DNA of 64,000 bases. It comes from Pseudomonas monteilii. Its GTDB lineage: Bacteria; Pseudomonadota; Gammaproteobacteria; Pseudomonadales; Pseudomonadaceae. Each line of letters opens with the position of its first letter. Position 1 is the stretch's first letter. Below are positions 18,188 to 43,005 of the stretch, piece after piece. The notes below the pieces were generated by a model. That model was given only the letters and a program-made list of their open reading frames with translations, did no database searches and was not told where the DNA came from. The stretch spans positions 4,154,001 through 4,218,000 of the forward strand of contig CP013997.1 in the NCBI GenBank assembly GCA_001534745.1, given 5' to 3'. Both the position numbers and the translations under genes were made by a program.

Positions 18188-18348
18188 GCCGCGCTGTCGC
18201 GCAAAGAACATGACGGTAGCCGACAGGATCCGAAGCTTCATTGCTAATCGATTTTAGGGCCGCTTTGCGGCCCATCGCGGCACAGGGGCCGCTCCCACAC
18301 CCGTAGTCCCACCGCGGGGTTGCAGGCTATCGCGGTCACCTGTGGGAG
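18188..18348 (+). repeat. REP-containing dispersed repeat, copy A, left part
   Basis: This is the left 161 bp of a repeat of about 206 bp whose right 45 bp lie beyond the IS (19524-19568). A leader (GCCGCGCTGTCGCGC onward) is followed by a REP palindrome (GGCCGCTTTGCGGCC) and a GGGGCCGCTCCCACACCCGTAG segment. The segment 18222-18280 is identical over 59 bp to the reverse complement of 28223-28281. No gene is present between rsgA and the IS. Confidence 0.88.
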
Positions 18349-18371
18349 ATTCTATGGTAATTGCCAAGCGC

Positions 18372-19319
18372 TTAAGCGGCTTTGGGACGATATTCCTCTC
18401 CGCTTCTGATCAGGGCAAAGACCACTCGAGCCAGCTTGCGGGCCAGCATGACCAGGACTTGAGTCTTTTTAAAACCGCGGCTCTGCTTGTCTTCGTAAAA
18501 CGTTTTCCAAGCAGCTGTCCTACCTGCTGACATCGCCGCGTTGTGCAGCAAACGACGGACCTCTGGATCGCCTCGTTTGGTCAACGTCGAGCGTTCTTTT
18601 TTCTTGCCCGACTGAGCCACTCGCAGGTCCATTCCTAGAAAGGCGATAAAGGCATCGGCACTCTTGAACTCGCCTCGCTGGTAGGTGGCGACCAAACGCG
18701 CAGCGGTAAGAAAACCAATACCTTCAACTTTCATACACTGCTTTACTAACGGCATCAGTCCTGCCTGGTCGAGCAGCTTCTTGATCATGTTTTCAATGAG
18801 GTCTTCAAGGCGCTTCATCGAGGTGAGCTGGGACTTCAAAAGGTTCTTGAGCAGCGGCTCACCCTCCCAGCTCAGTCTCAGCGCTGTACGCGTCTGGACG
18901 AGCATCGCGCGCCTGCGAAACAGGCTGACAAGGTCGCGATAGAGTGTCGAAGGGGGGACCCAGGGGGTAAGATTAGCGCCTTCGTTCTTGAGGTACCGGG
19001 CCAGTACCCTTGCATCGATCGGGTCAGTCTTGGCGCGTGAACCAATACCTTTTCGGTAGTGACTCAGGGCATAACCATCCATCAAGTAAAGGGTATGTCC
19101 TGCTTCATGGACCATATCGGTAAACAGCAGGTGATAGACATTGGTGGCCTCGATTGCAATCGAGACCTTGCCGTGCAATGCCTTGATCCATTGCTTGATG
19201 GCCGTCTTGTTGTTGGCAATAGTGCTCAACTGTCCGGAGCTGTCTTCGTAAATGACGAGCTCAGCCTTAGCAACGTCGACGCCTATGATCGTGCTGTGTT
19301 CGGATGATGGCATTGCCAT
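18372..19319 (-). CDS. IS110-family transposase (DEDD recombinase)
   Basis: The 315-residue recombinase would excise and insert the element through a circular intermediate guided by a bridge RNA. The RuvC-like domain has the DEDD set at D15 (GVDVAKAE), E57 (AIEATNVYH), D99 and D102 (KTDPIDARVLA). The C-terminal Transposase_20 domain has the helix-hairpin-helix VEGIGFLTAARLVA, and QSGKKK with S236 as candidate catalytic serine. The frame is open and undamaged from ATG 19319 (a second ATG at 19313), so the element may be active. Base composition is lower in GC than the flanking genes, consistent with recent acquisition. Confidence 0.95.
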   Translation of the reverse strand: MAMPSSEHSTIIGVDVAKAELVIYEDSSGQLSTIANNKTAIKQWIKALHGKVSIAIEATNVYHLLFTDMVHEAGHTLYLMDGYALSHYRKGIGSRAKTDPIDARVLARYLKNEGANLTPWVPPSTLYRDLVSLFRRRAMLVQTRTALRLSWEGEPLLKNLLKSQLTSMKRLEDLIENMIKKLLDQAGLMPLVKQCMKVEGIGFLTAARLVATYQRGEFKSADAFIAFLGMDLRVAQSGKKKERSTLTKRGDPEVRRLLHNAAMSAGRTAAWKTFYEDKQSRGFKKTQVLVMLARKLARVVFALIRSGEEYRPKAA

Positions 19320-19359
19320 GAGCGCGTCTCCGCAGGTAAGGTCTAAGGGCTTGAAGGGC

Positions 19360-19515
19360 CACCCAGAGGCGCAGGCTTGTACTTTCGTCGGTCAAAACCG
19401 GAAGCATTCCTTATCGGCGCTTAGGTGAAGGGAGGAGGGGCGAAATCTCCCACGGTCTGTACTGCGCGAACAGTCAGAAGCGGATCTAGTCCCTCCTCCT
19501 CCCTTCAAGTCCTAC
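19360..19515 (-). ncRNA. Candidate bridge RNA of the IS110 element
   Basis: The upstream noncoding end of the IS, on the transposase strand, folds into a loop closed by a perfect 13-bp stem (19495-19507 with 19426-19438) holding 56 bases. Inside it, CCGCT (19479-19483) matches the left target GGCCGCT, and GTGGGAG (19447-19453) is complementary to the right target CTCCCAC. This is the expected target-binding loop. Closer to the transposase, TACAAG (19376-19381) is complementary to the left IS end CTTGTA, and GGAATGCT (19403-19410) resembles the right end GAATCT, as expected for a donor-binding loop. The ends of the RNA are estimates. Confidence 0.7.
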
Positions 19516-19523
19516 CATACAAG

Positions 19524-19652
19524 CGGCCCCTGTGCCGCGATTGGGCCCGCAGGGCCCACAAAGTCCTTCAAGTATTTGCTTTAAGATCAAAAAGATATTT
19601 GTGTTCTATGAGAGCGGCCCCTGCCGGGGCGCCGGACCGGCCGCGATCACGG
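19524..19652 (+). repeat. Copy A right part and a second inverted REP
   Basis: 19524-19568 continues the interrupted repeat (CGGCCCCTGTGCCGCG then GGGCCCGCAGGGCCCAC). An AT-rich spacer (19565-19610) separates it from a further REP, GCGGCCCCTGCCGGGGCGCC type, at 19611-19652, which abuts the 3' end of motB. No gene is present between the IS transposase and motB. Confidence 0.8.
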
Positions 19653-40780: not shown

Positions 40781-42927
<2,147 letters not shown>

Positions 42928-43005
42928 ACACGCGCAGTCTAGACTGCACAGGCCGACAACGCCAGGCGCATGCCGTGGGGAATGATCGGCGGCGCGCATG
43001 GTCGA

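Follow-up and report, generated by a model that had tools for sequence, protein, structure and literature searches.

Bridge RNAs of IS110 elements, target covariation and longer right guides have already been published (PMC11208160). In IS621 of Escherichia coli, all four pairings include the core and a promoter is rebuilt at the circle junction (PMC11208160), and it can be deduced from the published pairings that the right donor guide is interrupted, with AU, two flipped bases, G and CAAG (PMC11208158). The bridge RNAs of the family differ in structure and length, and a predicted bridge RNA is displayed for ISPpu10 and five others (Extended Data Fig. 10c in PMC11208160). Targeting of REP sequences has been reported for IS621, ISPpu9 and ISPpu10 (PMC1525189). 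By its published description, ISPpu10 of P. putida KT2440 is an IS110 element with a REP target, a 2-bp direct repeat and 7/7 copies in REP; ISPpu9 of the same strain, likewise an IS110 element, also has 7/7 copies in REP (PMC1525189) and a structured tnp leader together with small RNAs, described as antisense upstream of tnp and sense downstream (PMC8450116). The seekRNAs of ISEc21 and ISPa11 come from a non-coding region and guide target choice; ISEc21 is an IS110 element with an upstream RNA, and ISPa11 targets Pseudomonas REP as does the element described here but belongs to the IS1111 group and has a downstream RNA (PMC11187229). In the literature found on IS110, bridge RNA and Pseudomonas, no paper treats the present element, as far as the accessible parts of these texts extend. 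Since IS110 bridge RNAs and a predicted bridge RNA of ISPpu10 have been published, the element is a further example of the known kind and not a new kind of system.

The window analyzed here is a stretch of 64,000 nucleotides from the 4.71 Mb chromosome of Pseudomonas monteilii. Its sequence very strongly suggests an IS110-group, REP-targeting insertion sequence that encodes a predicted bridge RNA in its upstream end (Table 1). The recombinase matches PF01548 (E 8.4e-22) and PF02371 (E 5.7e-20), and the best-scoring solved structure by sequence is the ISCro4 transposase (9t56, E 6.1e-22), with IS621 at E 1.6e-21. It combines a DEDD RuvC-like domain with a C-terminal domain holding a conserved serine; all five residues (D15, E57, D99, D102 and S237) are invariant in 12/12 aligned recombinase proteins, and S237 is aligned to the ISCro4 serine. 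The left non-coding end comprises 204 nt and the right one 23 nt, the RNA region lies upstream of the gene, and insertion is site-specific at a short CT core. The flanking genes, named from their translations, are presumably rsgA-like and motB-like. A distant-mode search of the plasmid collection returned no similar DNA.

Table 1. Features of the element and its target, in window coordinates.
Feature	Position	Strand	Remarks
IS110-group insertion sequence	18349..19523	-	1,175 bp with one CT core; nine near-identical copies share ends
IS110 recombinase gene	18372..19319	-	315 aa; PF01548, PF02371; DEDD = D15, E57, D99, D102; Ser237
REP target, left half GGGGCCG then core CT	19522..19530	-	flank comparison
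REP target, right half CTCCCACAG	18340..18348	-	flank comparison
-10 hexamer TATGGT	19514..19519	-	circle-junction promoter, by sequence
-35 hexamer TTGGCA, in right end	18362..18367	-	circle-junction promoter, by sequence
Predicted bridge RNA	19350..19507	-	ends predicted from the -10 hexamer (5') and the closing stem (3'); fold of 19320-19512
Target-loop stem, 5' arm TGAAGGGAGGAGG	19495..19507	-	perfect 13 bp with CCTCCTCCCTTCA
Target-binding loop, 56 nt	19439-19494	-	closed by the 13-bp stem
Left target guide AGATCCGCT	19479..19487	-	7 nt plus core CT; aligned across relatives; covaries with left target
Apical hairpin of target loop (TCTGACTG ... CAGTACAGA)	19456..19478	-	seven pairs in alignment of 36
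Right target guide CCGTGGGAG	19447..19455	-	complementary to CTCCCAC; 7 contiguous matches; eighth base mismatched
Target-loop stem, 3' arm CCTCCTCCCTTCA	19426..19438	-	perfect 13 bp; both arms differ between two clades
Donor-binding loop	19365..19422	-	limits approximate; outer GCGC/GCGC pairs in 36/36 sequences, invariant
Left donor guide AAGGAAT	19406..19412	-	versus IS right end ATAGAAT; 5/7 exact plus one wobble
Right donor guide GTACAAG	19376..19382	-	versus IS left end CTTGTAT; contiguous; last pair G-T wobble

A search of the whole genome with the element recovered nine copies that are 99-100% identical, from which their spread is probably recent. All nine occupy the same point of a REP sequence, (GG or CC)CCG/CT/CCCACAG, and share the left end CTTGTATGG (core CT = 19523-19522) and the right end ACCATAGAAT; the limits of the element, with one CT core, were drawn from these common ends and the flanking CT. 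In the window copy, the right end reads ATAGAAT/CT (18349-18355, core 18348-18347), the flanks are CCG/CT on the left and CT/CCCACAG on the right, and 2-bp CT cores at 18347-18348 and 19522-19523 enclose the element. The left flank is GGGGCCG in 7/9 copies and AAGCCCG in 2/9. The chromosome holds 179 intact CCGCTCCCACAG sites and two of the reversed pattern. When the flanks were joined through one CT, at least 31 stretches of the same genome crossed the junction with 82-93% identity (for example 3811269-3811524, 91%), a lower bound from 33 scored candidates out of 250, and these are unoccupied equivalents of the target. An empty site at the same locus was found in no relative among the 19 genomes searched. 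A dispersed unit of ~255 bp with REP sequences was also observed (window ~18188-18348 plus 19524-19617, and for instance G000:C1:3811269-3811524); judged by their flanks, seven of the nine copies appear to lie inside it.

The predicted RNA folds with a minimum free energy of -74.9 kcal/mol compared to a shuffle mean of -64.2 (z -2.24; equalled by 4/200 shuffles). A 56-nt loop on a perfect 13-bp stem, claimed earlier from the letters of the window, is present exactly where it had been placed. Because an RNAalifold consensus from a MAFFT alignment appeared to misplace this stem between two clades of relatives, the arms were compared directly: the first clade has a stem of the GAAGGGAGGAGG type and the second one of the GAAGGGGTGG type, each with a facing arm that has changed to match, and mean predicted pairing amounts to -26.9 kcal/mol within clades versus -20.1 with arms exchanged between them. 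In the 36 left ends that remained after G091, sequences with N and duplicates were dropped, each of the seven pairs of the apical hairpin is unchanged in 34-36 sequences; a double change keeps one pair in two sequences, and another pair is broken in one. A long-range stem, CTTGAAGGG/CCCTTCAAG (19501-19509/19350-19358), closes both loops in the predicted fold. In the minimum free energy structure, part of the 5' arm of the target stem pairs with the downstream CCCTTCAAG, and the long-range stem competes with the lower target-loop stem. Its seven pairs are kept in 35-36/36 sequences, and covariation gives these pairs no support because compensatory changes are absent.

Four guide words had been proposed in the earlier note, and each of them occurs once in the left end: CCGCT (19479-19483) and GTGGGAG (19447-19453) in the target loop, TACAAG (19376-19381) and GGAATGCT (19403-19410) in the donor loop. 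The place of CCGCT as left target guide was right but its extent was not, as the guide across relatives is the 9-nt AGATCCGCT (19479-19487), that is, the nine bases that precede the conserved TCTGACT hairpin. Among 20,000 mononucleotide-shuffled versions of the left end, with neither orientation nor order required, GTGGGAG occurred in 1.5%, TACAAG in 3%, CCGCT in 26% and all three in 0.02%. Taken alone the words are thus weak, and the case beyond chance is made by the relatives.

Among 298 genomes of the genus, relatives of the element are present in 57, the host's own included. Copies were read in 35 of these, again with the own genome, which gave 98 copies, 95 of them (from 34 genomes) with both ends; three copies of G080, whose right end lies more than 200 bases away, were dropped, and the same element was later tested as L162. 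The left guide matches its own target at 282/336 non-core positions over 48 distinct combinations of genome, guide and target from the 34 genomes, a count that retains the misfitting guides of G186, G128 and G091. When guides were shuffled among genomes, one guide per genome, the mean was 235.7, the maximum 263, and none of 20,000 shuffles reached 282. Exact pairs of guide and target are AGGCTCG in G062, G010, G111 and G124, AAGCCGG in G070, AAGCCAG in G296 (L076) and ATGCCCG in G217 (L079). All four copies read in G094 change on both sides of the core, with the left guide TAGTTCG for the target AAGTTCG and the right guide GTAGGAG for CTCCTAC. The same right guide with the same target is found in P. 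dryadis and H. urmiana, and elements with the CTCCTAC right target mostly carry the matching guide; in Halomonas LBP4 and one G254 copy this target stands with GTGGGAG (G-T wobble), and KNUC1026 is devoid of a GTRGGAG word. The eighth base of the right guide is mismatched in nearly all rows of the comparison, and the core of the left guide is CT in two of the 32 genomes by which the 38 distinct left ends are labelled and AT or CA in the other 30. In-frame stop codons were seen in the copies of G125, which are apparently decaying.

Common descent of elements and of REPs can make such a comparison look stronger than it is, and six distant elements were therefore examined (KNUC1026, Halomonas LBP4, P. 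dryadis, a Natronospira MAG, H. urmiana and S. stutzeri). They were picked, after reading, from twelve listed elements so that each had a target outside the common Pseudomonas set and no element was represented twice; of 80 loci, 14 were read. The guides match at 40/42 left-guide positions, and of 720 permutations only one, the true pairing, reaches this number. The Natronospira element has a left guide that fits its target at 9/9 non-core bases and at the core, and a right guide that matches 9 bases. Four other listed elements (the second S. stutzeri copy, P. gingeri A8002, P. putida 17522 and P. syringae GR12-2) match at 6/7 positions each, and the remaining two at 4/7 and 2/7, the latter in P. 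entomophila. Relatives that carry unchanged guides at other targets had been named beforehand as the finding that would speak against guide function; instead, guides change with targets. As in IS621-type elements, a target loop holds split guides that match both target strands and covary with them. Left-guide misfits are L015 of G186 (2/7), G128 (2/7, register shifted), G091 (3/7) and P. entomophila L101 (2/7). L015 has the left flank TTGGTAG and CTCCCACATTTGGTAG on both sides, as if moved or duplicated locally, and L101 of P. entomophila 6C6 has a near-identical left end beside AGACTACGA, not the usual REP, on a contig that ends within the element. In L162-L164 of Pseudomonas sp. KNUC1026, more than 200 bases, including a REP-like stretch, separate the gene from the right end.

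The left target pairing had been called weak from the start, and so it proved in the host genome. The left guide AGATCCG matches 4/7 non-core bases of either local REP type; when wobble is counted, it fits AAGCCCG at 6/7 and GGGGCCG at 4/7 positions. Intact sites number 115 for AAGCCCG and 60 for GGGGCCG, yet seven of the nine insertions are in GGGGCCG (binomial P 0.014) and do not favour the better-matching REP. The fully matched site AGATCCGCTCCCAC is absent from the host genome, and 25 of the 298 genomes of the genus have it, with at most two sites in any of them, which leaves a recent arrival from a host with a matching REP unsupported. Many GGGGCCG sites may fall within the ~255-bp units, and these units may provide a better insertion context; alternatively, the outer four positions of the left guide may matter little in this genome. 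The preference for the worse-fitting REP type and the missing full site could also mean that the bridge RNA is encoded but unfaithful, the element spreading by a preference of the protein or for a REP context while its left guide has drifted. This reading, which overlaps the one preferred here, is unlikely, as CCGCT and CTCCCAC make up 10 contiguous target bases, CCGCTCCCAC, that are matched at all nine copies, and the identity of these copies points to a spread that is probably recent.

A further reading would assign the structured upstream end solely to translational control of the transposase mRNA, as a 5' leader and possibly an antisense RNA, with incidental guide words. In ISPpu9, the tnp mRNA begins with a structured 5' leader of 244 nt, and two small RNAs are produced (PMC8450116); the left end here would likewise be the tnp leader, and its fold is more stable than the shuffles. 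A leader, in contrast, would have no need of words that vary with the genomic target to the left and right of the core, and as the sole role of this region it seems very improbable; leader and bridge-RNA roles may coexist. That the complementarity is due to chance or to a functionless REP fragment captured by the left end is hardly credible despite the short words, the frequency of CCGCT in shuffles and the poor fit of the left guide to host REPs, because the guides have opposite senses, occupy fixed places around a conserved hairpin, are divided by the CT core and change with the target both across the 34 genomes and in the six distant elements, whereas a captured fragment would be continuous and of a single sense. 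Given the distant set, common descent of element and REP is unlikely to account for all of the covariation.

Under the preferred reading, a bridge RNA with two guide loops, the second loop reads the ends of the element itself. The left donor pairing had likewise been named as weak. The site proposed for GGAATGCT held, but its pairing with GAATCT gave way to the better one of AAGGAAT with ATAGAAT, and the core of this guide is without a match. In the 95 copies, CATAGAAT forms the right end and CTTGTATG the left one, the latter replaced by CTTGGATG in L067; this constancy is partly by construction, as the search patterns required near-CTTGTATG and CATAGAATCT, and CATAGAATCT was also read by eye in three KNUC1026 copies. 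The donor guide matches are present and conserved, and the nearly constant ends leave nothing for these guides to covary with. The right donor guide has the interrupted form AT-N4-R-CAAG in 34/38 distinct left ends, which resembles the interrupted guide deduced for IS621 from the pairings given in PMC11208158. Exceptions are the two sequences of the window genome, G254, which has AC for AT, and G091, which lacks the loop. The AT has been lost in the window lineage and in P. entomophila 6C6, where TACAAG pairs uninterrupted with CTTGTA. These natural donor-guide variants are directly testable.

A promoter of the predicted RNA would be found on the excised circle. Joined ends would create TTGGCA-17-TATGGT, so that a predicted promoter is rebuilt at the circle junction as in IS621-type elements, and the chromosomal insertion has AATCGC in place of the -35 hexamer. 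Scanning the element in its inserted form returned no promoter, which is what a promoter confined to the circle would predict. With spacings of 16-18, the best -35 of the relatives matches the consensus at 3-5/6 positions in the circle, just 3/6 in many, and at 1-2/6 in the chromosome (3 in L067), where the control is GC-rich REP sequence, which is partly why it scores low. Together these features suggest a mechanism in which the right and left ends, joined in the circle, would form a promoter of the sigma-70 type, from which the left end would be transcribed into a bridge RNA of ~155 nt. The first loop would read the REP target around the CT core, with the left guide against the bottom strand and the right guide against the top strand, and the second loop would read the joined ends of the element likewise. 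The recombinase, presumably bound to this RNA and still active, would exchange strands at CT, and each copy would land at the same REP point. For the host, this would explain why the elements sit at one point of the REP.

The likeness to IS621 extends to a homologous recombinase with conserved DEDD and serine residues, the REP target, the CT core, the target loop preceding the donor loop, the covarying guides and the junction promoter, and the two-loop, IS621-type reading made from the sequence at the outset is supported. The right-donor word CTTGTAT is common to both elements, as deduced from the pairings in PMC11208158. Differences concern the 5' region, where 16 nt of the left end precede the target-loop stem and the RNA, predicted to start at the stem, leaves no room for a 5' stem-loop; the right target guide, with 7 nt here and 4 in IS621; the right donor guide, contiguous here, with a 4-nt interruption in most relatives and a 2-nt one in IS621; and the left-guide core, which is CT in the window element and non-CT in most relatives. 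As the bridge RNAs of the family vary by the published account (PMC11208160), a 5' stem-loop does not define the wider kind. The missing room for it, the non-CT guide core of the relatives and the contiguous right donor guide are features observed at the level of sequence. They might be parts of one variant layout that lacks a 5' stem-loop and encloses both loops in a long-range stem, in which the left target guide leaves the core unread, the right donor guide of the window lineage has lost its flipped-out interruption and become contiguous, and the guides follow the drift of host REPs, a combination put forward tentatively and with some doubt. With nine copies in one genome and dozens of relatives in which RNA guide and genomic target change together, the elements provide a natural test set. 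No bridge RNA was matched when the window was searched against Rfam at gathering thresholds, and the sole match was an ordinary TPP riboswitch at 42825-42931 on the minus strand (83.8 bits versus a gathering score of 54.3).
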